Shown here piece after piece: positions 27,955 through 41,103 of a stretch of 64,000 nt of DNA. Each line of letters begins with the position of its first letter. Position 1 is the first letter of the stretch. Origin of the DNA: Desemzia incerta (GTDB lineage Bacteria > Bacillota > Bacilli > Lactobacillales > Carnobacteriaceae). Under the pieces are notes generated by a model. That model searched no databases. It had not been told where the DNA came from and saw nothing but the letters and a program-made list of their open reading frames with translations. The position numbers and the translations under genes are program-made. The stretch is taken from positions 62,001-126,000 of the forward strand of contig NZ_FOXW01000005.1 of assembly GCF_900115825.1 (NCBI RefSeq). Direction: 5' to 3'.

Positions 27955-28680
27955 ATGAAAAAAGTACTCATTGTAGATGATGAACCTTCAATTATCACTT
28001 TGCTAGCTTTTAATTTGGAAAAAGAAGGGTATTCAGTTAAAACCGCTTCGGATGGGTTAGAAGGATATGAATTAGCGGCTACGAACCAATATGATTTTAT
28101 TATTTTAGACTTAATGCTTCCTTCTATGGATGGAATGGATATTTGTAAAAAATTGCGTCAAGAAAAAGTAAATACACCTATCCTGATGTTGACAGCTAAA
28201 GACGATGAGTTGGAAAAAATTATTGGGCTTGAATTAGGTGCTGATGATTATATGACAAAGCCTTTCAGTCCTCGTGAAGTATTGGCAAGAATGAAAGCTA
28301 TTATGCGTCGAATCGGCGAACCAACGGATACTGCCGAAAGTGATCACGCAAATGAAGCAGCAGATGAAGAAGAAAAAGTACAAGTAGGAGAAATCGTCAT
28401 TTACCCTCATCAGTACGAAGTTTTAGTTCGTGGTGATTCGATTGAATTGACTCCTAAAGAGTTTGAGCTGTTGTTGTATATGACGAAAAGACTAAATCGT
28501 ATATTGAGCAGAGAGCAGTTGCTGAATGCGATATGGAACTTTGATTACGCGGGGGAAACGCGTATTGTTGACGTCCATATTAGTCACTTGAGAGAAAAAA
28601 TTGAAGTAGATACCAAGAATCCTGAATACATCAGAACCGTACGAGGTTTTGGATACAAATTTGAGGCGCCTAAAGTATGA
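27955..28680 (+). CDS. phoP: PhoB/PhoP-type response regulator
   Basis: 241 aa OmpR-family regulator. Receiver domain with D8-D9, phospho-acceptor D52 (IILDLMLPS) and conserved K in TKPFSPREVLARM; an acidic linker; and a winged-helix DNA-binding domain from about residue 143. The next gene is its kinase (ATGA overlap) and two pst operons follow, which supports phosphate control. The upstream repeats fit PhoP autoregulation. Confidence 0.93.
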   Translation: MKKVLIVDDEPSIITLLAFNLEKEGYSVKTASDGLEGYELAATNQYDFIILDLMLPSMDGMDICKKLRQEKVNTPILMLTAKDDELEKIIGLELGADDYMTKPFSPREVLARMKAIMRRIGEPTDTAESDHANEAADEEEKVQVGEIVIYPHQYEVLVRGDSIELTPKEFELLLYMTKRLNRILSREQLLNAIWNFDYAGETRIVDVHISHLREKIEVDTKNPEYIRTVRGFGYKFEAPKV

Positions 28681-30452
28681 AGCAACTCCATTTAAGAATT
28701 CTCAGTACCTTTGTGATTATCTTTGTTTTATTCAGCTTGGTATTTGGGTTCTTTTTGAACAATTTATTAAGTGAACACTCAAGAGACAGGCAAAGGGATG
28801 CATTGATTGAACAAGCGCGTTTAATGAGTTTCTTTTTGTCAGAAAACATGGAGGCTGATGCAAATACTTCAGAAATCATGGAGCAGGTAAATAACTTATC
28901 CATTCAATTAGACGAACGGATAACCATCATTGGAGTGGATGGAGAGGTTGCATTCGATTCTGAGACCAATGCTGAAGAACTTGAAAACCATGCTTACAGA
29001 GAAGAAGTAAAAGCCGTTCTAAACGGGGAAGCGTATGGTATAGGATCGAGAGTAAGCAGCAGTACGGGCGTAGAAGAGTATTATGTAGCTATACCATTAC
29101 TTGATCCGTCTGGAGAAATGAGCGGTGTTCTACGCTTATCTCAGCCCGTCGATACGATTACGCAATTGTATAAAGAAATCAATCAATCACTGATCATTTT
29201 TATTTTGATCGCTGTTTTGGTAGCTTCCTTTATTACCTATTTAACGACTAAACGTATTGTGCGACCGATAGAAGAAGTAATGGATGTCACGAAAGAATTG
29301 TCCGAAAAGCACTATAATGCTCGCTATTCCGGACAAGGATTCGGTGAGATTTCTAAATTAGGCTCAACAGTCAATGAGTTAGCGGAAAGCTTAGAAAATC
29401 AAATGCTGCAAATCAAACAAAATGATGAACGATTGTATGAGCTGATCAATCACTTGGTCATTGGAGTAATGTTGTTGGATAATCAACGCAATATCCAAAT
29501 GGTCAACCCTGCAATGAGTCGGATTTTAGGAGAAGATACCTCTCAGTTGTTAGGAAGTTCTTATGTGGAAGCTATTAAGAGTTATGGGCTAAGTCATATC
29601 ATTGAACGAGCCTATAGAAGAAAAAAAGCTCAAAACAATGAAATTTACTTCTACTATCCGGAAGACAAGATTGTAGATGCCAATATTGTACCGATCAACG
29701 GAAAAAACCCTGGTGAATTAAACGTTATCGTCTTACTTTACGATATTACTGAAATCAGGAGATTAGAGAAAGTCCGAACGGATTTCGTTGCAAATGCTTC
29801 TCATGAATTGAGAACGCCTGTAACTGCTTTAAAAGGTTTTGCAGAAACGTTATTGGATGGAGCCAAAGAAGATAAAGAAATACTGGAACAATTTTTAGAA
29901 ATCATGTTAAAAGAAAGCATTCGATTAGATTCTATTGTAAATGACATTTTGGAGTTGTCTCGAGTGGAACAAAAACAAGTTCCATTGAAATCAGAAGATG
30001 TGAGAGTGAAAGATGCAGTAGAATCAACATTCAAATTAGTAAGGCAAAAAGCTGAAAGCAAACATATGGAGCTCATCGTTATAGAAGAAGACGAGATGAC
30101 GATTCAAACGGATCTTAACCGATTGAAACAAGTTCTGGCTAATTTGATCAATAATGCGATCGTCTACACGCAAGAAAATGGTAAAGTCACAGTCAAGATT
30201 TATAGAGAACATGAATTTGCAGTTATTGAAGTAAAAGATAATGGGATTGGTATTCCTGAGGACGAGCAAGACCGGATCTTCGAGCGTTTCTACCGAGTGG
30301 ATAAAGCAAGAAGCCGCAACTCAGGTGGAACAGGGTTAGGATTGTCTATTGTAAAATATTTAGTCGAAAATTTACACGGGACGATTTCAGTATCCAGCAA
30401 ATTAGGGTTGGGAACAACTTTTACTGTGAAATTGCCTTCACAGTTAATTTAA
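28677..30452 (+). CDS. phoR: phosphate regulon sensor histidine kinase
   Basis: 591 aa. Membrane helix 1 (about 8-28), an extracytoplasmic sensor region (about 30-165), helix 2 (about 168-188), HAMP, a PAS domain (about 250-350), HisKA with phospho-accepting H376 (ASHELRTPVTALKGF), and a HATPase with N box NLINNAIVYT and G boxes DNGIGIPED and GGTGLGLSIVK. The start overlaps the phoP stop by ATGA. Expected to sense low phosphate through the Pst/PhoU system and phosphorylate PhoP. A WalK-like alternative is excluded mainly by the pst neighbours. Confidence 0.92.
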   Translation: MKQLHLRILSTFVIIFVLFSLVFGFFLNNLLSEHSRDRQRDALIEQARLMSFFLSENMEADANTSEIMEQVNNLSIQLDERITIIGVDGEVAFDSETNAEELENHAYREEVKAVLNGEAYGIGSRVSSSTGVEEYYVAIPLLDPSGEMSGVLRLSQPVDTITQLYKEINQSLIIFILIAVLVASFITYLTTKRIVRPIEEVMDVTKELSEKHYNARYSGQGFGEISKLGSTVNELAESLENQMLQIKQNDERLYELINHLVIGVMLLDNQRNIQMVNPAMSRILGEDTSQLLGSSYVEAIKSYGLSHIIERAYRRKKAQNNEIYFYYPEDKIVDANIVPINGKNPGELNVIVLLYDITEIRRLEKVRTDFVANASHELRTPVTALKGFAETLLDGAKEDKEILEQFLEIMLKESIRLDSIVNDILELSRVEQKQVPLKSEDVRVKDAVESTFKLVRQKAESKHMELIVIEEDEMTIQTDLNRLKQVLANLINNAIVYTQENGKVTVKIYREHEFAVIEVKDNGIGIPEDEQDRIFERFYRVDKARSRNSGGTGLGLSIVKYLVENLHGTISVSSKLGLGTTFTVKLPSQLI

Positions 30453-30668: not shown

Positions 30669-30731
30669 TTTACATAGCTTAGACGAAAGATTACATAAAG
30701 TCGATTAAAAATTAATATTCAGAGTTTAACA
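30669..30731 (+). promoter_or_regulatory. PhoP-box-like repeats upstream of pstS1
   Basis: TTTACA (30669), ATTACA (30690, two helical turns later) and TTAACA (30726) match the TTHAYA PhoP hexamer on the coding strand. No strong -35 is present, as expected for an activated promoter. Confidence 0.6.
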
Positions 30732-30789: not shown

Positions 30790-31704
30790 ATGGATTTCAA
30801 AAAAATATCTAAGTACATGTTAACAACTGGAGCAGCATTATTATTAGCGGCTTGTGGCGGCGGAGAATCAGGAGCTGAGAATCAAGACGGAGAAACAGCA
30901 AGTGGAGGCAGTTTTGATACATCGCAAACAATCAACGTCATCACTCGTGAAGACGGTTCAGGTACAAGAGGCGCATTTACAGAAATCACCGGTGTTTTAG
31001 TAGAAGATGGAGAGACTGAGTCAGACAACACTTATGCTGGAGCGACTATTCAAAACAGTACTAACGGGGTAATGACCACTGTATCAGGCGACCCTACATC
31101 TATTGGGTATATTTCATTGGGTTCTCTTAATGACACTGTAAAAGCATTGAATATTGGTGGAATCGAACCATCTACTGAAACTGTTCAAGATGGATCCTAT
31201 GAAATTGCGCGACCATTCAATATTGCATATAAAGATGAATTGAGTGAAGTAGCTCAAGACTTCTGGACATTTGTCATGAGTGCTGAGGGACAAGAATTGG
31301 TTGTTGGAGAAGGATATGTGGAAGCTGTAACAGATGCGCCTGCATACGAAGCAGCTGAAGGACTTTCTGGAAATGTCAGTGTGGTAGGATCTACTTCTGT
31401 AACACCGGTCATGGAAGTACTTGCTGAAGAATACTCGAACTTGAATCCAGATGTAACAATCGACATCACTTCAAATGGGTCATCTGCTGGTATGACAGCT
31501 GCAATGGATGGATCAGCTGATATTGGTATGGCTTCTCGTGAATTGAAGGAAGAAGAATTAGCTGAACTAACCTCTGAGCCGCTTGCAATCGATGGAATCG
31601 TAGTAATCGTTCATCCAGACAACACAGTTGAAGATTTGACTATGGAGCAAGTAAGACAGATTTATACAGGAGAAGTGACAACTTGGGCAGATGTCGCTGA
31701 ATAA
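30790..31704 (+). CDS. pstS: phosphate ABC transporter substrate-binding lipoprotein, circularly permuted PstS
   Basis: 304 aa. Lipobox LAAC (Cys22). The normal PstS domain order is swapped: the segment TREDGSGTR (52-60) through NGSYEIARPF and SAEGQ, which is the second half of ordinary PstS, comes first. The usual first half, with GSTSVTP (200-206), NGSSAGMTAAMDGSADIGM and IYTGEVTTWADV, comes last. Both halves are complete, so the fold should be intact. ATG 30790 is used because of the GGATGGGG site upstream. Binds phosphate outside the membrane for PstCAB. A stem-loop separates it from pstC. Confidence 0.9.
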   Translation: MDFKKISKYMLTTGAALLLAACGGGESGAENQDGETASGGSFDTSQTINVITREDGSGTRGAFTEITGVLVEDGETESDNTYAGATIQNSTNGVMTTVSGDPTSIGYISLGSLNDTVKALNIGGIEPSTETVQDGSYEIARPFNIAYKDELSEVAQDFWTFVMSAEGQELVVGEGYVEAVTDAPAYEAAEGLSGNVSVVGSTSVTPVMEVLAEEYSNLNPDVTIDITSNGSSAGMTAAMDGSADIGMASRELKEEELAELTSEPLAIDGIVVIVHPDNTVEDLTMEQVRQIYTGEVTTWADVAE

Positions 31705-31750: not shown

Positions 31751-31784
31751 ACAAGCCCGCCTTAGCAATGTGAAGCGGGCTTGT
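31751..31784 (+). promoter_or_regulatory. stem-loop between pstS1 and pstC1
   Basis: ACAAGCCCGC (31751-31760) pairs perfectly with GCGGGCTTGT (31775-31784), without a T-run. It is likely an mRNA-stabilising or partial termination structure that keeps pstS mRNA above pstCAB. Confidence 0.7.
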
Positions 31785-31898: not shown

Positions 31899-32762
31899 AT
31901 GAAAGCAAAAAAAGTAGAAGGATTTATGCAAGGTGTGTTTTTAATTTCTGCCTTGCTGTCGGTCTTGTCTATTATTCTTATTATCATTTTTATGTTTGCG
32001 GGCGGCGTCCCTTTTATGTTGGAATACGGAATAGCAGACTTTTTGTTTGGAGATCGCTGGTCACCTTCTAATACACCGGCATCATTTGGTATTTTGCCGA
32101 TGATCTTAGGATCTATCTTTGTCACTCTTGGAGCCATTGTCATAGGAGTTCCGATTGGGATATTGACAGCAGTTTTTATGGCGGAGTTTTGCCCGCCAAA
32201 ATTGCACAGATGGTTAAAACCAGCAGTGAATTTGATGGCAGCTATCCCTTCAATTGTCTATGGCTTTTTCGCTTTACAATTGATCGTTCCCATTATGAGG
32301 AATTTTTCTGGAGGAACGGGAATGAATATGCTGACAGCTATGATTTTATTAGGCGTCATGATTTTACCAACGGTTATCGGTCTTTCGGAATCCAGCTTGC
32401 GTTCAGTACCTAGATCGTATTACACCGGAAGCATGGCACTAGGTGCGACGCATGAGCGTACTGTTATGAAAGTCATCATGCCGGCTGCAAAATCGGGGAT
32501 TATTTCTTCTATTATATTAGGAGTAGGACGAGCAATAGGAGAGACGATGGCGGTCGTTTTGATTGCTGGAAACCAACCGATCATTCCTCAAAGCATCACT
32601 AGTGGAGTACGTACCTTGACAACTAATATTGTCTTAGAAATGGCCTATGCTGCAGGTGAGCATAGAGAAGCTTTGATTGCTACAGGTGTCGTACTTTTCG
32701 TGTTTATTTTGATCATAAACGGTGTGTTTATGTTCATCAAACGAAAGGAGTCTAGAGCATGA
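31899..32762 (+). CDS. pstC: phosphate ABC transporter permease PstC (operon 1)
   Basis: 287 aa, six membrane helices. PstC landmarks are [30 protein letters not shown] and the EAA-loop ESSLRSVPRSYYTGSMALGAT, which contacts PstB. ATG 31899 with AAAGGAG upstream. It overlaps pstA1 by ATGA. Forms the membrane channel with PstA. Confidence 0.95.
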   Translation: MKAKKVEGFMQGVFLISALLSVLSIILIIIFMFAGGVPFMLEYGIADFLFGDRWSPSNTPASFGILPMILGSIFVTLGAIVIGVPIGILTAVFMAEFCPPKLHRWLKPAVNLMAAIPSIVYGFFALQLIVPIMRNFSGGTGMNMLTAMILLGVMILPTVIGLSESSLRSVPRSYYTGSMALGATHERTVMKVIMPAAKSGIISSIILGVGRAIGETMAVVLIAGNQPIIPQSITSGVRTLTTNIVLEMAYAAGEHREALIATGVVLFVFILIINGVFMFIKRKESRA

Positions 32763-33574
32763 GCAGTAAACTGATCAGAGGGCTTGTTTATTTGTCAGCA
32801 GCATTAACCTTTACTTCATTAGTGTTCATTTTGCTGTACATTTTCGCAAATGGGCTTCCTCACTTGAATTCGGATATTCTTTCGTGGAACTTTACAACGG
32901 ATAACCAATCATTGATTCCATCACTGATTACGACATTTATTGTATTAGGGTTGACGTTATTGATTGCAACTCCTATTGGCGTGTTTACAGGTTTTTATCT
33001 AGTAGAATATGCTAAAAAAGGAAATAAAGTCGTGGGAATCATAAGAATGGCGACAGATACGTTAGCTGCTATTCCTTCTATTGTTTATGGATTATTCGGA
33101 ATGCTGTTCTTTGTTACTTTTTTAGGGTTCCAATACAGTGTAGCAGCAGGGGTTCTGACTTCCGTGATCATGGTTTTACCATTGATTATTCGGTCGACAG
33201 AAGAAGCCTTGATGGCGGTTAACGATTCGCTGCGTGAAGCTAGTTTTGGTTTAGGAGCAGGAAAATTAAGAACGATATTTAAAGTCGTTTTGCCAGTTGC
33301 TATGCCTGGGATACTCTCAGGAGTGATTTTAGCAAGCGGCAGAATCATCGGAGAGACTGCTGCTTTGATGTACACATTAGGAACTTCTTCTAATTTGCCT
33401 AGTGGGCTGTTCTCATCAGGAAGAACATTAGCTTTACACATGTACGTTTTATCTAATGAAGGAATACATGTCAATCAATCTTTTGCTACAGGTGTAGTGT
33501 TGATCATATTTGTGCTGGTAGTCAACGGACTATCGACATTTCTTAGCAATAAGCTCGCAAAGGGGACGAAATAA
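32759..33574 (+). CDS. pstA: phosphate ABC transporter permease PstA (operon 1)
   Basis: 271 aa, six membrane helices, with [16 protein letters not shown] and the EAA-loop [21 protein letters not shown]. Begins in an ATGA overlap with pstC1 and ends one base into the pstB1 start codon (TAATG), so pstC-pstA-pstB are tightly coupled. Confidence 0.95.
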
Positions 33575-34326
33575 TGAGTAAAATCAGTATAAAAGATATG
33601 GATCTATGGTATGGAGATTTTCAAGCGTTGCACGGAGTAAGTCTGGAGATTCCAAAAAACCAAATTACAGCATTTATTGGACCGTCAGGATGCGGAAAAT
33701 CGACATTGATCAAGAGTTTGAATCGAATGAACGATTTAGTAGAAGGTTGTCGTATAGAAGGCGACATTATGCTGGATGGAAAAGATATTTACAAAAGTAC
33801 TATGAATGTAAACTCATTGCGTAAAAATGTTGGCATGGTGTTTCAACAACCCAATCCTTTTCCAATGAGCATTTACAATAATATTGCGTATGGTCCAAGG
33901 ACACATGGGATTACGGATAAAAAACAACTAGATGAAATTGTAGAAAAAAGCTTACGCGGAGCAGCGATATGGGAAGAAGTTAAAGACGACTTGAATAAAA
34001 ACGCATTGTCTATTTCTGGTGGTCAGCAACAACGAATTTGTATTGCAAGAGCGTTAGCTGTTCAACCAGAAGTCCTTTTAATGGATGAACCTACAAGTGC
34101 TTTGGACCCGATTTCGACAGCTAAAATTGAAGAATTGGTCACAGAGCTGAAAGAGAAGTATACTATAGTTATGGTTACCCATAATATGCAGCAAGCTTCT
34201 CGTGTTTCTGACCAGACGGCATTCTTTTTTAATGGTCGAATCATTGAGTCTGGAGACACTAGAGACATGTTTACCAATCCCACAAAAAAACAAACGGAAG
34301 ATTACATTTCTGGTCGCTTTGGGTAA
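33574..34326 (+). CDS. pstB: phosphate ABC transporter ATPase PstB (operon 1)
   Basis: 250 aa. Walker [11 protein letters not shown]-loop [20 protein letters not shown] (a PstB hallmark), signature [17 protein letters not shown], Walker [14 protein letters not shown], and a C-terminus ending EDYISGRFG as in PstB proteins. It follows pstA1 with overlapping stop and start. phoU1 lies 117 nt downstream. Confidence 0.97.
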
Positions 34327-34443: not shown

Positions 34444-35115
34444 ATGAGACAAAATTTTGAAGAGGAATTAAATGATTTACATGTGCATTTTTCAGAAATG
34501 GGAATGATGGTTAGTGAGGCAGTTTATAAATCTGTAAAAGCTTTTATCAATCACGACAAAGAATTAGCTCATAATGTGATCGAAAACGATGTGGCGATCA
34601 ATAACCGGGAAGCAGAGTTGGAAAAAAAATGTTTTGAATTGATCGCTTTACAACAACCAGTAACCAGCGATCTAAGAAAAATCATTACAGTTATGAAGGC
34701 TTGTGCTGATTTAGAACGTATGGGAGATCATGCGGTAAGTATCTCTAAATCAACGATTCGAGTAAAAGGCAATAAACGCGATCCAAAAATAGAAGCGGAA
34801 ATCGCAGACCTTTCTGAAATCGTTAAGAAGAGAGTAGAAGAAGTGTTGGAAGCTTACCTGCAGTATGATGTAACTAAAGCTAGAGAGATCGCACTAAAGG
34901 ATAATCAAATTGATGAGGCTGCACATTCAATCACAGAAAAAGCAATTGAAGATATGAAACGCAGTTCTGACTTGGTCATTGGGGCTGCCGACTATATTTT
35001 AGTGGCATCTTACCTGGAAAGAATCGGAGATTATGTAACAAATATATGCGAATGGATCGTTTACCATGAAACAGGTAAAGTAGTGGAGTTGAATACTAAA
35101 AATAAGGATATCTAA
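34444..35115 (+). CDS. phoU: phosphate-specific transport regulator PhoU (operon 1)
   Basis: 223 aa, all-helical, with two PhoU repeats each carrying the metal-binding ExxxD-type motif (TVMKACADLERMGDHAVSI and YLERIGDYVTNICEWI). PhoU links Pst transport state to PhoR and limits phosphate uptake. Start ATG 34444 with AGAGG upstream. Last gene of the first pst operon, closed by a strong terminator. Confidence 0.95.
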   Translation: MRQNFEEELNDLHVHFSEMGMMVSEAVYKSVKAFINHDKELAHNVIENDVAINNREAELEKKCFELIALQQPVTSDLRKIITVMKACADLERMGDHAVSISKSTIRVKGNKRDPKIEAEIADLSEIVKKRVEEVLEAYLQYDVTKAREIALKDNQIDEAAHSITEKAIEDMKRSSDLVIGAADYILVASYLERIGDYVTNICEWIVYHETGKVVELNTKNKDI

Positions 35116-36385: not shown

Positions 36386-37306
36386 TTGGAAGAGACACAA
36401 AGCAAGTTTATGCAAAAATCAAGTAAGCGCAAAATTGAACAGTTTGGAAGAACCATTAGTTTTATTTGTATTGCGTTTATTGTATTAATCGTATTGTCTA
36501 TTTTGTATTTTGTTATCAGCAAGGGAGTTTCAACATTTACAACCGATGGGGTATCAGTTATTGATTTCTTATTCGGAGATATTTGGAGACCAGGTGAGGT
36601 AGGAGAAAACGGGGAGCCGTTGGTCGGAGCTTTGCCAATGATTTTAGGGTCTTTCTTTGTTACTTTATTATCTGCGTTATTAGCTACTCCATTTTCTATT
36701 GCAGCGGCAATTTATATGGTGGAAATCTCTCCTAAAGCAGGGAAGAAAATTCTACAACCGGTTATCGAATTGTTAGTTGGTATTCCGTCTGTTGTATACG
36801 GGTTTATTGGACTTACAGTTGTTGTACCGTTTATTCGAAGTATATTTGGCGGTACGGGATTCGGTATCTTATCTGCTACAATCGTTTTATTTGTTATGAT
36901 ATTGCCAACTGTTACGAGTATGGCTGTAGATGCTTTAAAATCCGTTCCGCGTCATTATCGTGAAGCGTCATTGGCAATGGGAGGAACACGCTGGCAAACG
37001 ATTTATAAAGTTGTTTTGCGTGCTGCTACCCCCGGTTTATTGACAGCCGTAGTATTTGGGATGGCACGTGCTTTTGGAGAAGCTTTAGCGGTTCAAATGG
37101 TTATCGGGAATGCTGCAATGGTTCCTACTGATTTGATCACTCCTGCTTCAACATTAACGAGTATTTTAACAATGAGTATGGGGAACACAGTTATGGGAAC
37201 CCTTGAAAATAATGTACTATGGTCACTAGCAACGATTCTTTTAGTGATGGCATTGTTCTTTAATATCCTAACACGTTGGATCGGTAAGAAAGGAGCAATG
37301 AAATAA
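36386..37306 (+). CDS. pstC: phosphate ABC transporter permease PstC (operon 2)
   Basis: 306 aa, six membrane helices. GALPMILGSFFVTLLSALLA and VGIPSVVYGFIGL are typical of PstC, and the EAA loop is DALKSVPRHYREASLAMGG. The start is TTG at 36386 with AAGGAGG 7 nt upstream. Its last base overlaps the pstA2 start. Confidence 0.95.
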   Translation: MEETQSKFMQKSSKRKIEQFGRTISFICIAFIVLIVLSILYFVISKGVSTFTTDGVSVIDFLFGDIWRPGEVGENGEPLVGALPMILGSFFVTLLSALLATPFSIAAAIYMVEISPKAGKKILQPVIELLVGIPSVVYGFIGLTVVVPFIRSIFGGTGFGILSATIVLFVMILPTVTSMAVDALKSVPRHYREASLAMGGTRWQTIYKVVLRAATPGLLTAVVFGMARAFGEALAVQMVIGNAAMVPTDLITPASTLTSILTMSMGNTVMGTLENNVLWSLATILLVMALFFNILTRWIGKKGAMK

Positions 37307-38190
37307 TGAATTCAAAAAAAGCAGACAAAATTGCAGTAGGCGTTATTTACGTTATGTCAGCAGTTATTGTATTAATTCTAGCTAGTTTATTGCTCTTTAT
37401 TTTATGGCGCGGACTGCCTCAGATTTCATGGGAATTCTTAACAGCTCCTGCTAAATCTTTCCAAGTTGGTGGGGGTGTTGGGATCCAACTCTTCAACTCA
37501 TTTTATTTGTTGATATTGACCATGCTGATTAGTACACCTTTAGCTTTAGGTGCGGCTATTTACTTATCAGAATACGCTAAACAAAACTGGCTGACAGATT
37601 TTGTACGTACAGCTATTGAAGTTTTAAGTTCTTTACCTTCCGTAGTAGTCGGATTATTCGGTTTCTTGATTTTCGTTATTCAATGGGACTTTGGATTCTC
37701 TATCCTTTCTGGTGCCTTGGCTTTAACGATTTTCAACTTGCCTTTATTAACCAGAACTATTGAAGATTCTTTACAGGCCATCCCAGCAACTCAAAGAGAA
37801 GCAGGACTGGCACTAGGATTATCTCGTTGGGAAACAGTTACAAGAGTTATTCTTCCAGCTGCATTACCAGGGATTATCACGGGTATGATTTTAGCAGCAG
37901 GGCGTATTTTTGGTGAAGCCGCAGCTCTTATCTATACAGCAGGGCAAAGTGCGCCGGCTCTAGATTTTACAAACTGGAACCCTCAATCGATTACAAGTCC
38001 ATTGAATATTTTCCGACCAGCAGAAACATTAGCGGTTCATATTTGGAAAATTAACAGCGAGGGTGTAATGCCGGACGGAGAACAAGTATCTGCCGGAGCA
38101 TCAGCTGTATTGATTCTTGCCGTAATGCTATTTAACCTAGGATCACGCTACCTAGGAAGAAAACTACAGAAAAAAGCCACATCAGAATAA
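37306..38190 (+). CDS. pstA: phosphate ABC transporter permease PstA (operon 2)
   Basis: 294 aa, six membrane helices with VLSSLPSVVVGLFGFLIFV and the EAA loop EDSLQAIPATQREAGLALG. It overlaps pstC2 by one base. Unlike operon 1, the ATPase gene does not follow directly: the TAA stop is also the first part of a 12-nt direct repeat bordering a GC-rich hairpin element, and pstB lies almost 400 nt away. Confidence 0.95.
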   Translation: MNSKKADKIAVGVIYVMSAVIVLILASLLLFILWRGLPQISWEFLTAPAKSFQVGGGVGIQLFNSFYLLILTMLISTPLALGAAIYLSEYAKQNWLTDFVRTAIEVLSSLPSVVVGLFGFLIFVIQWDFGFSILSGALALTIFNLPLLTRTIEDSLQAIPATQREAGLALGLSRWETVTRVILPAALPGIITGMILAAGRIFGEAAALIYTAGQSAPALDFTNWNPQSITSPLNIFRPAETLAVHIWKINSEGVMPDGEQVSAGASAVLILAVMLFNLGSRYLGRKLQKKATSE

Positions 38191-38328
38191 CAGCATGTGG
38201 AGCGACCCCGGGAGAAATTGAGCACTAACGAAGTCTAAACGCAAGCAACCCAGCGCAGCGGTTGTGCGGATTGGACAGCGTTAGGCGGAGATTTCTGGGG
38301 AGCGCAACTGACCTAAAACAGCATGTGG
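38189..38328 (+). repeat. long-hairpin intergenic element A bordered by 12-nt direct repeats
   Basis: The direct repeat AACAGCATGTGG occurs at 38189-38200 and 38317-38328. Between them is an imperfect palindrome (38202-38305). Its nested stems are GCG/CGC, CCCC/GGGG, AGAAAT/ATTTCT, CTAACG/CGTTAG, GTC/GAC, CGC/GCG and CAACC/GGTTG, closed by loop CAGCGCAGC. It is clearly more GC-rich than its surroundings. It shares termini GTGGAGC and GCGCAAC with the element after lpd. No protein is encoded. Confidence 0.75.
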
Positions 38329-38582
38329 GAGCCGCTATCCTGACTCGACAGGAAAATCTATTCTCTTTTTAGAGGATGTTCTTTGCTGAGAGACTTCCAG
38401 CTTCAGCTGGTTCAGTCGAACAGTATAAGACTGAGCAGAAGCGAAGAGTTAATCCTTGAAACATATGTAGTCATTGATACAGCTCGATCAAACTAAGTGG
38501 CTAATCAGCTTGCAGCTGGAATGGAGTTTCCTATGTAAGGAAATTCATTTTTACCCACTAGGAATAAAGGAGGACTTTTATA
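38329..38582. other. non-coding remainder of the pstA2-pstB2a spacer
   Basis: About 250 nt without an open frame of interest. It contains a perfect small hairpin CCAGC-TTCA-GCTGG (38398-38411) and a related CAGCTTGCAGCTGG (38507-38520), but no clear terminator or promoter before the AAAGGAGG of pstB2a. Confidence 0.5.
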
Positions 38583-39389
38583 ATGAAAAGTCAATCAACT
38601 CAAAATACGAACATCATTACTTTAAAAGATAAATCAACAGTAGCTTTAGAGACAAATGATTTACATGTGTACTATGGAGATAATGAGGCTATCAAAGGAG
38701 TTTCATTGGAATTCGAAAAAAATAAGATCACTTCTTTGATTGGACCAAGTGGATGTGGGAAATCAACGTATTTAAGATCTTTGAATCGTATGAATGATGA
38801 GATTGAAATAGCTAAAGTAACTGGTGAAATCTTGTATAAAGGCGTAGATGTGAATGCATCAAATATCGATGTATTCGAAATGAGAAAAAACATCGGTATG
38901 GTATTTCAACGCCCTAATCCTTTCAGTAAATCCATTTATGACAATATCGCGTTTGCTTTGAAAAGACATGGTTTAAAAGATAAAAATGAATTAGATGAAA
39001 TTGTTGAAACAAGTTTGAAACAAGCAGCTTTGTGGGACCAAGTAAAAGACAACTTGCATAAGAGTGCATTAGCTCTATCTGGTGGACAACAACAGCGTTT
39101 ATGTATTGCACGCGCAATAGCCTTGAAACCAGATATTTTATTGTTAGATGAACCTGCTAGTGCTTTAGACCCAATCTCCACAGCTCAAGTAGAAGAGACG
39201 TTGTTGGAGTTAAAAGAAAACTATTCAATTATTATCGTAACTCACAATATGCAGCAAGCATCACGTATCAGTGACTACACGGCCTTTTTCTATTTAGGAA
39301 ATGTGTTGGAATATGATGATACAAGAAAAGTATTTACACGTCCTAAAATTCAAAAAACTGAAGATTATGTTTCAGGTAACTTTGGTTAA
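38583..39389 (+). CDS. pstB: phosphate ABC transporter ATPase PstB (operon 2, first copy)
   Basis: 268 aa, with an N-terminal extension of about 18 residues compared with its neighbour. Walker [30 protein letters not shown], signature [15 protein letters not shown], Walker [22 protein letters not shown] upstream of ATG. In place of the usual PNPFP it has PNPFS. It is followed 14 nt later by a second PstB, a pairing also known in streptococci and lactobacilli. Confidence 0.96.
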
Positions 39390-39403
39390 GAAGGGAGTAG
39401 TAA

Positions 39404-40168
39404 TTGACAGTGAATGAAAAAATTATTGAAACAAATGATGTGCATTTGTACTATGGCAAAAATGAAGCATTAAAAGGCATTACACTTGATTTTAATCCGC
39501 ATGAAATTACAGCCCTTATCGGACCAAGTGGATGTGGAAAGTCAACGTATTTAAGAACACTGAATCGTATGAATGATTTGATTGAAAATGTAACCATCAC
39601 AGGTCAAGTGAAATTTCGAGGTAATGATATCTATAGTCCGAAAACGGATAAAGTGGAATTAAGAAAAAAAGTTGGAATGGTATTTCAACAACCTAATCCC
39701 TTCCCGTTTTCTGTGTTCGATAATGTAGCTTATGGACTTCGAATCGGCGGTATGAAAGACAAAGAAAAAATCCAACACATCGTTGAAGACAGTCTGAAAA
39801 AAGCAGCCGTATGGGACGATGTGAAAGACAAACTGCACAATAGTGCTTTAGCTTTATCTGGTGGACAACAACAACGTGTCTGTATTGCACGTGTATTAGC
39901 TGTAGAACCGGAAGTTATTTTGCTGGATGAACCTACAAGTGCTCTGGACCCGGTGTCAAGTGGTAAAATCGAGAACATGTTGCTGGAACTGAAAAACGAT
40001 TATACTATGATCATGGTAACGCACAATATGCAGCAAGCTTCACGTATTTCAGACAATACAGCTTTCTTTTTACAGGGTGACTTGATTGAACACGGAAAAA
40101 CAAGACAAATTTTTACTACTCCAAGACAACAAGAAACAGAAGATTATATTTCAGGTCGTTTTGGTTAA
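39404..40168 (+). CDS. pstB: phosphate ABC transporter ATPase PstB (operon 2, second copy)
   Basis: 254 aa. Walker [30 protein letters not shown], signature [16 protein letters not shown], Walker [15 protein letters not shown]-terminus [12 protein letters not shown] start at 39404 with GGGAG 8 nt upstream; a GTG two codons later is an alternative. Together with the preceding ATPase it could form hetero- or homodimers with PstCA. A terminator follows, so phoU2 is in a separate unit. Confidence 0.96.
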
Positions 40169-40176
40169 GATGTTTT

Positions 40177-40209
40177 AGAGAGATAGACTCGGTCTATCTC
40201 TCTTTTTTT
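40177..40209 (+). terminator. hairpin terminator after the second pstB
   Basis: 12-bp perfect stem AGAGAGATAGAC with its complement around TCG, followed by a seven-T run. Confidence 0.92.
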
Positions 40210-40425
40210 GCCATTGAACTGAATTGCCGTAAAAAAAGATTGGAAAATATCCATTAGTAGAGATGAAAACAGTCTTAACTATACCAATACAAAAGGTTAT
40301 TGATTGTTTTAGTCATAAAAAGGAACAATCATTGGATTTTTCTAACAATTCAGTGCATAATAATAAGTAACATATAAATGCTCTTATAACAGATAAAAAG
40401 ACTATATAAATGAAGGTGATTTGAG

Positions 40426-41103
40426 ATGAGAAAAGTATTTGAAGAAGAATTAAACGATCTGCATGTCCATTTTTTTCAAATGGGAAAAGCTGTACATGAA
40501 TCAATTGAGAAATCAATAGAAGCCTTTATAAAACATGATAAAGCTCTTGCACAAGAAGTGATTGATAATGATATTCATATCAATCGACTTGAAGTTGCGT
40601 TAGAGCAAGACTGTATTGAATTAATTGCATTGCAGCAACCTGTAACTACAGATCTAAGAAAAATTATTACAGTTATGAAAGCTACATCTGATTTAGAACG
40701 AATGGCAGACCACGCGGTGAGTATTTCAAAATCAACGATTCGAGTCAAAGGAAATAAAAGAGAATACGACATTGAAAAAGGAATTTACGAAATGTCTGAA
40801 AAAGTTCTTTATATCGTTCGTAAAGTTTTGGATGCTTATGTGATTTTTGATGCTGATGAAGCCAGAAGATTGGCAGCTCTTGATAAAGAAGTCGACATGA
40901 TGGGCAAAGAACTATATGCAAAATGTATTAAGTTTATGAAAAATGACCCTGAAATCGTACTTGGAGCGACAGATTACCTTCGCGTAACAACTTATTTAGA
41001 ACGAATAGGAGACTATTCAACAAATATCAGCGAATGGATCGTGTACTTGGAAACAGGAAAAGTAGTAGAATTAAATACGCAAAATCATTTAAAAGATATT
41101 TAA
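40426..41103 (+). CDS. phoU: phosphate-specific transport regulator PhoU (second copy)
   Basis: 225 aa, close relative of the PhoU encoded at 34444: same length, shared FEEELNDLHVHFFQMGK start, TVMKATSDLERMADHAVSI and YLERIGDYSTNISEWI metal sites. ATG 40426 with AAGGTGAT upstream. The 257-nt space before it contains a terminator, so it needs its own promoter, which I could not identify with confidence. Confidence 0.95.
   Translation: MRKVFEEELNDLHVHFFQMGKAVHESIEKSIEAFIKHDKALAQEVIDNDIHINRLEVALEQDCIELIALQQPVTTDLRKIITVMKATSDLERMADHAVSISKSTIRVKGNKREYDIEKGIYEMSEKVLYIVRKVLDAYVIFDADEARRLAALDKEVDMMGKELYAKCIKFMKNDPEIVLGATDYLRVTTYLERIGDYSTNISEWIVYLETGKVVELNTQNHLKDI

Follow-up and report, generated by a model that had tools for sequence, protein, structure and literature searches.

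A circularly permuted PstS in the first pst operon of Desemzia incerta

The first of two successive pst operons in Desemzia incerta very probably encodes, in place of ordinary PstS, a circularly permuted form of this phosphate-binding protein that serves a low-phosphate importer, keeps the fold and the phosphate pocket, arose a single time and has been inherited as a cassette with its own permease. The gene lies in the window, by which is meant the whole stretch of 64,000 nucleotides that was analysed, and all features described below are on its forward strand.

The permuted gene and its protein

The pstS gene (P0001) runs from an ATG at 30790 to a stop codon at 31702-31704, and its frame is intact and open throughout; the coordinates 30790-31704 proposed in the sequence-only reading are correct. 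The ATG is preceded by GGATGGGG, a stretch resembling a ribosome site, and an alternative GTG 36 bases upstream is also in frame. The product is a lipoprotein of 304 amino acids that opens with a lipoprotein signal peptide (30790-30855), recognised by eye, with an LAAC lipobox at residues 19-22 and the Cys codon at 30853-30855. Half B, which is C-terminal in ordinary PstS, follows at 30919-31350 (residues 44-187) and carries the TREDGSGTR phosphate loop (30943-30969, residues 52-60) and the SAEGQ motif (residues 164-168). The new junction, at which the old C-terminus is joined to the old N-terminus, spans 31321-31371 (about residues 178-194). Half A, N-terminal in ordinary PstS, closes the protein at 31351-31701 (residues about 188-304), with GSTS at 31387-31398 (residues 200-203) and IYTGEVTTW at residues 291-299, and the chain ends at the old loop between A and B. 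All four of these motifs had been named beforehand, and all were found.

The proposal that the second half of PstS comes first here and the first half last is borne out by BLASTP, by Pfam, by TIGR02136 and by structure. With the PstS of the second operon (P0002, 35412-36287) as the comparison protein, BLASTP aligns residues 196-302 of P0001 with residues 31-140 (31% identity, E 7e-15) and residues 48-177 with residues 147-269 (30% identity, E 6e-13), and both swapped segments lie far beyond chance. The second-operon protein has the ordinary order, again as had been proposed, and PF12849 (PBP_like_2) matches it in a single stretch, 11-267. The same profile passes its cut-off of 27 on P0001 with 130.9 bits in two stretches, profile positions 130-267 coming first and 5-125 second, and TIGR02136 (ptsS_2) likewise matches P0001 in two stretches and the second-operon PstS in one. 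P0001 departs from ordinary PstS in two respects: half A does not precede half B, and its score of 201.0 bits falls 5.6 bits below the TIGR02136 PstS family cut-off of 206.6, a narrow miss that is attributed to the splitting of the match. Because the profiles split the protein and the score is just under the NCBI cut-off, the gene is open to misreading as broken or partial. Misassembly, truncation or decay is almost certainly not the explanation. Interrupted copies do occur, the permuted pstS frame being broken in three of 12 loci from one streptococcal genus (L117, L123 and L124), but the frame in the window is whole, 47 frames in the window and the other loci share the B-A order, and the crystal structure 4h1x carries it as well.

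The AlphaFold2 model of residues 40-304, built on an alignment of 42 permuted sequences, has a pLDDT of 96.7 and a pTM of 0.89, and its top match in the PDB is 4h1x (Foldseek TM 0.95; by VIA-align, Z 37.4 and rmsd 1.0 A over 257 aligned residues with 52% identity). This structure, titled as SP_2084 of Streptococcus pneumoniae TIGR4, shares with P0001 the permuted order, over the full length, and the fold. Among 27 distinct PDB sequences (E up to 1) it alone was matched across both halves in a single stretch. Other solved phosphate-binding proteins cover about one half of the model (79-152 residues among the matches listed), and the half matches fall at the opposite end of the chain: residues 136-276 of 1twy and 112-245 of 4q8r align with model positions 1-140, residues 142-276 of 4gd5 with 1-141, and residues 2-118 of 9l8j with 151-265. 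Foldseek and VIA-align both appear to follow chain order. The model of the second-operon PstS (pLDDT 92.9) aligns over 239-241 residues with 4gd5, 4q8r and 1twy (Z 28.7-29.8; the 1twy chain matched differs from that in the P0001 comparison), and E. coli 1a54 covers 244 residues of it (Z 22.9) as against 152 residues of P0001 (Z 7.6). From the two half matches in swapped order and the one full match to 4h1x we infer a permutation: as modelled, P0001 is a true circular permutation, neither a truncation nor a changed fold, and the original suggestion of a permuted and not a truncated protein is supported by structure prediction and by comparison with solved structures.

The clostridial proteins 4Q8R (Clostridium perfringens) and 4GD5 (Clostridium) are matched by sequence in both halves, half B being 35-37% identical, but they have the ordinary order, and 133-134 of their residues align with P0001 in chain order. 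The second-operon PstS and the PDB entries 4EXL and 4ECF have the PstS family and a pst operon in common with P0001, but their order is ordinary. Circular permutation has also been applied to a two-lobed binding protein in the laboratory (PMC9815098); the constructs in the portion of that paper drawn on here are single lobes of a type I protein, whereas P0001 is natural and whole.

Permuted chains stop 0-2 residues past the end of the half A profile in 46 of 47 rows (the other runs on for 43), which places the cut in the loop leading from the T-G-x-x-T-x-W helix to the strand after it. At the B-A junction the profile ends are 0-3 residues apart in 43 of the 47 rows and 8, 10, 16 and 81 residues apart in the others, the 81 residues, with a high content of Glu, Ser and Thr, being those of Ruoffia halotolerans (L043:5887-7020). 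A small motif ending in Gly, defined by a loose pattern, precedes the first A strand in 45 of 47 permuted junctions versus 28 of 48 canonical proteins; it may have a structural role, or be what is left of the former tether. By the lobe limits that we assume for PstS, the second lobe contains the cut and the first lobe the new joint; since the permuted chain then both starts and ends in the second lobe, strand order suggests that the lipid tether leaves that lobe and not the first. No lengthening of the tether was found in the permuted form, the medians being 21 for 39 permuted and 19.5 for 36 canonical proteins (p 0.37) in a comparison that left aside seven permuted proteins (six without a lipobox, one without the motif) and 12 canonical ones (two without a lipobox and ten without the motif, these ten being of the second-operon type, the window's own included).

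Six permuted proteins, those of L043, L106, L107, L108, L024 and L102, have no lipobox by the pattern used, and in some of them the N-terminus looks, by eye, like a type I signal or a membrane helix. In L043, L106, L107 and L108 the permuted pstS is the last gene of its operon, behind pstCAB-phoU. That at L102:4660-5586 (G061) is a second, lone permuted pstS with an N-terminus resembling a membrane helix, and neither pstC nor pstA was found beside it in the 15 kb read.

The phosphate pocket

Pocket residues were compared in an alignment of 46 permuted and 48 canonical rows with E. coli PstS (b3728) as reference, the phosphate contacts of which we take to be residues 10, 11, 38, 56, 135, 139, 140 and 141, Phe11 presumably making its contact through the main chain. 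P0001 has T, S, S, S, R, S, G and T at these positions. Arg53, Ser57, Gly58 and Thr59 of the TREDGSGTR loop align with Arg135, Ser139, Gly140 and Thr141 of the E. coli protein, and Thr202 and Ser203 with Thr10 and Phe11. Conservation extends across the permuted set: the Thr10 position is T or S in all 46 rows, Ser38, Arg135, Ser139 and Gly140 are each kept in 46, Thr141 is kept in 45, and the Phe11 position is S in all 46. The motifs named for both phosphate-binding segments are present, and on the assumed list the binding residues are largely kept, six of the eight contacts in P0001 being as in E. coli and positions 11 and 56 differing. Eight alignment columns separate the permuted proteins from their canonical homologues (45 versus 28 rows), including Asn144 in the hinge strand and residue 248, which adjoins Ser249, and none of the eight is among the contacts assumed.

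The position of Asp56 is Ser in all 46 permuted rows (Ser249 in P0001) and in 38 of the 48 canonical homologues, and Asp in the second-operon PstS. Ser is also found there in 4Q8R and in the solved clostridial structure 4gd5, the title of which names bound phosphate. Because most unpermuted homologues share it, this Ser, to go by the aligned sequences, probably predates the permutation; the difference between Asp and Ser249 may affect the choice between phosphate and arsenate. The constancy of Ser in the permuted proteins might be taken to mean that they bind some other oxyanion instead of phosphate, and this is very unlikely: the same Ser occurs in the ordinary homologues and in the phosphate-titled 4gd5, the gene sits with pstCAB, phoU and pnpS, and the pneumococcal Pst1 operon is required for best phosphate uptake after limitation, according to the portion of PMC4913102 drawn on here. 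Most likely the permuted protein works like PstS; its cycle would be that of the ordinary protein, with phosphate binding, closure, docking on PstC1-PstA1 and release of the ligand.

Distribution and origin of the permuted form

Searches with P0001 found long permuted matches (E 1.1e-47 or better, the best remaining row from any other genome being at 1.6e-21) in 29 of the 118 Lactobacillales genomes covered, one of them with its match split across two contigs, and in eight of 15 genomes of the window's family. The class sample gave five of 299 and the phylum sample ten of 299, the order, class and phylum samples overlapping and including the window's genome. In the phylum sample 75 genomes matched at E 1e-25; the 65 beyond these ten were judged canonical from half-length matches, and the 20 of them that were checked as loci (L059-L078) all proved to be A-B. 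With the 4h1x chain as query, permuted PstS was found in 27 of 147 genomes of one streptococcal genus. Loci picked by name were permuted in eight of nine cases, the nearest relative being from Desemzia (89%) and the others from Carnobacterium, two Trichococcus, Ruoffia, Christensenella, a Clostridiales MAG and a coriobacterial MAG; the ninth, from an Oscillospiraceae MAG, is canonical. A single coriobacterium is the only sign, in the genomes covered, that the permuted form leaves Bacillota. The sequence-only reading had pointed to similar sequences among clostridial proteins, and scattered Clostridia do carry the permuted form, but the picture was incomplete: the form is common in Lactobacillales and has a solved structure in 4H1X, and the closest canonical relatives are bacillar as well as clostridial. 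The patchy spread across the family and the streptococcal genus fits transfer and loss. S. pneumoniae and S. pseudopneumoniae carry the block SP_2081-2088, which S. mitis, S. oralis and S. infantis lack, according to the part of PMC6722419 used here.

Classification of 98 PstS-like frames gave 47 of B-A order, 49 of A-B order and two single halves, both at contig ends. For the trees the two halves of each protein were rearranged to A-B, and 46 permuted rows were used, pneumococcal rows being absent. In a quick tree of 95 rows the 46 permuted rows fall on one side of a branch with support 99. In a careful tree of 94 rows, which retained the divergent L058 and the long-branch canonical rows, they do so with support of 92/55 and in 93% of bootstrap trees, and the first trees of the separate halves, with all rows in, required two changes each. 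These figures are what might be expected had the permutation arisen repeatedly at a favoured loop, independently in clostridial and lactobacillar lines, a history that nonetheless is very unlikely. When 11 unstable rows (L058, L045 and nine long-branch canonical rows) were left out, the permuted clade, 45 of 83 rows, reached 100/99 in the concatenation and 97 and 98 in the halves alone; the cut, judged from the chain end, is the same in 46 of 47 rows; and the PstC partners of 40 permuted proteins lie together in a tree of their own.

In that quick tree the partners of 40 permuted PstS proteins are on one side of a branch and those of 37 canonical proteins on the other, with support 90, and scores with PstC1 range from 249 to 593 bits beside permuted PstS as against 62 to 319 beside canonical PstS. 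The tree covers the 40 of 47 permuted rows that have a PstC within reach downstream, which leaves out L024, L043, L057, L102, L106, L107 and L108. L057 lies at a contig end; in L043, L106, L107 and L108 pstC is upstream in the operon and is PstC1-like, at 384-414 bits. The canonical sisters of the permuted clade in the careful tree are bacillar and clostridial proteins, with weak support (86/49), and canonical relatives are about 40-56% identical in each half, often through both halves of one protein (E 1e-25 or better). The best reading of these sequence relationships is that the permutation, which looks ancient, probably arose once, in a clostridial-type line, and that the cassette has been co-inherited with PstC. 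Had two half-genes of different origin been fused, instead of one PstS being permuted, each half of the protein would also be matched separately in family searches; such a fusion is highly improbable, as each half taken alone places the permuted set in one clade and both halves find their relatives, at the identities just given, among the same kind of canonical proteins and frequently in one and the same protein.

On the preferred reading, that of a single permutation, an ordinary clostridial-type PstS would have been opened at the loop behind its T-G-x-x-T-x-W helix, ahead of the strand that follows, and a short linker would have connected the former C-terminus to the former N-terminus. The signal peptide and lipid anchor would now stand ahead of half B, because export needs an N-terminal signal, and the lipid tether would exit from the second lobe. 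The fold and pocket would have been retained, as the model and its match to 4H1X indicate. The route may have been the usual one, a tandem duplication after which the outer halves were lost, and the permutation, having most likely occurred once, would thereafter have been passed on together with its own permease as one cassette.

No fused intermediate of the form A-B-A, B-A-B or A-B-A-B was found among the 98 PstS-like frames, the longest of which has 378 residues, and the open frames listed for the order, class and phylum samples do not exceed 363 residues. At L089:5323-6635 two pstS genes stand in tandem, 69 bases apart, the second copy being cut by the contig end; they belong to the canonical group weakly sister to the permuted clade (86/49), and offer a hint of duplication. 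Permutation in place of the gene in the first slot is not favoured. Two genomes, G053 (L084) and G060 (L086), have two-component genes, a first pst operon and a second pst operon in turn. Their first operon holds an ordinary PstS, and the neighbouring PstC reaches about 170 bits with PstC1, against 249-593 bits for 40 permuted partners. The whole cassette differs, and not only the order of the halves within one gene; a different canonical cassette in this slot is an apparent case of whole-transporter replacement at one site.

Operon context, the pneumococcal Pst1 and wider meaning

The permuted pstS is encoded together with pstC, pstA, pstB and phoU. It is preceded by genes for a PhoP/PnpR-like response regulator (27955-28680; best model YycF, below its cut-off) and the sensor kinase PnpS (28677-30452; NCBIfam equivalog, 503.7 bits against a cut-off of 400), and followed by pstC1 (31899-32762; TIGR02138, 280.6 bits), pstA1 (32759-33574; TIGR00974), pstB1 (33574-34326; TIGR00972) and phoU1 (34444-35115; TIGR02135). 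The second operon continues after its pstS with pstC2, pstA2, two pstB genes (at 38583 and 39404, the latter named from sequence) and phoU2 (36386-41103). Two adjacent pstB genes such as these (38583-40168) have been reported for Enterococcus faecalis in the part of PMC12096839 drawn on here. The adjacent operons had been put forward as a direct comparison of two architectures for one task, but the comparison is not a clean one, since the permutation is not all that sets them apart. Their permeases are distant (with PstC1 as query its own score is 593 bits and that of PstC2 175), and the pockets differ at the Asp56 position.

Between the permuted pstS and pstC, at 31751-31784, lies a 10-base inverted repeat, ACAAGCCCGC ... 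GCGGGCTTGT, with a 14-base loop and no T-run, which the terminator scan (loops of 3-8) did not list. Upstream of pstS a Pho-box-like pair, TTTACA-N16-TTACAT (30669-30696), ends 93 bases before the start codon. The pattern has four sites in the window at up to one mismatch, as against a mean of 1.0 in shuffled sequences, three of 100 of which reach four; it is weak evidence, because the pattern was drawn from the site after reading it. The spacing is twice that of the pneumococcal pst1 Pho box, TTTACACAATCTTTACA, quoted in the portion of PMC4913102 used here, and the pair may be taken as a lead only.

The PstS of the genome G714 is 100% identical to the 4h1x chain, and it lies in the same layout as in the window, with a two-component system followed by pstS, pstC, pstA, pstB and phoU. 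In the pneumococcus the second pst operon is elsewhere in the chromosome (PMC4913102, in the part consulted), whereas in the window it follows directly. SP_2084-8 are named Pst1 with PhoU in the part of PMC6722419 seen, and the PDB label of 4h1x, 'pstS 2', clashes with the Pst1 of the literature. As reported in the portion of PMC4913102 on which this account draws, PnpRS mediates an induction of pst1 by about 210-fold at 10 uM phosphate, whereas pst2 is constitutive; either importer serves at 1 mM phosphate, but Pst1 is required if uptake at 200 uM following limitation is to be at its best, these data concerning whole operons and not PstS alone. The pneumococcal cassette with the permuted PstS is Pst1, the low-phosphate importer controlled by PnpRS, and the permuted PstS of the window is expected to serve a phosphate-starvation importer.

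The permuted architecture has been public in the PDB, as 4H1X, since 2012. What is new is the recognition of the permutation, its probable single origin, its tie to one permease clade and its identity with the PstS of pneumococcal Pst1. No paper noting a naturally permuted PstS was found in the open-access library searched, and the main text of PMC4913102 has no word beginning with 'permut'. A wider proposal, which is tentative and for the present rather doubtful, is that one ancient permutation founded a separate, unnamed class of PstS that is tethered by the other lobe, docks unlike the E. coli protein, is locked to its permease and, in place of ordinary PstS, runs the low-phosphate importers of the pneumococcus and of many other Gram-positive bacteria. 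As the permuted form is the PstS of pneumococcal Pst1, a docking or mutagenesis model transferred from E. coli according to the sequence of residues along the chain would be incorrect for that system. With a probable single origin and living canonical relatives about 40-56% identical in each half, it is a good case in which to learn how permutation is tolerated by a protein that has to flex, bind its ligand and dock.
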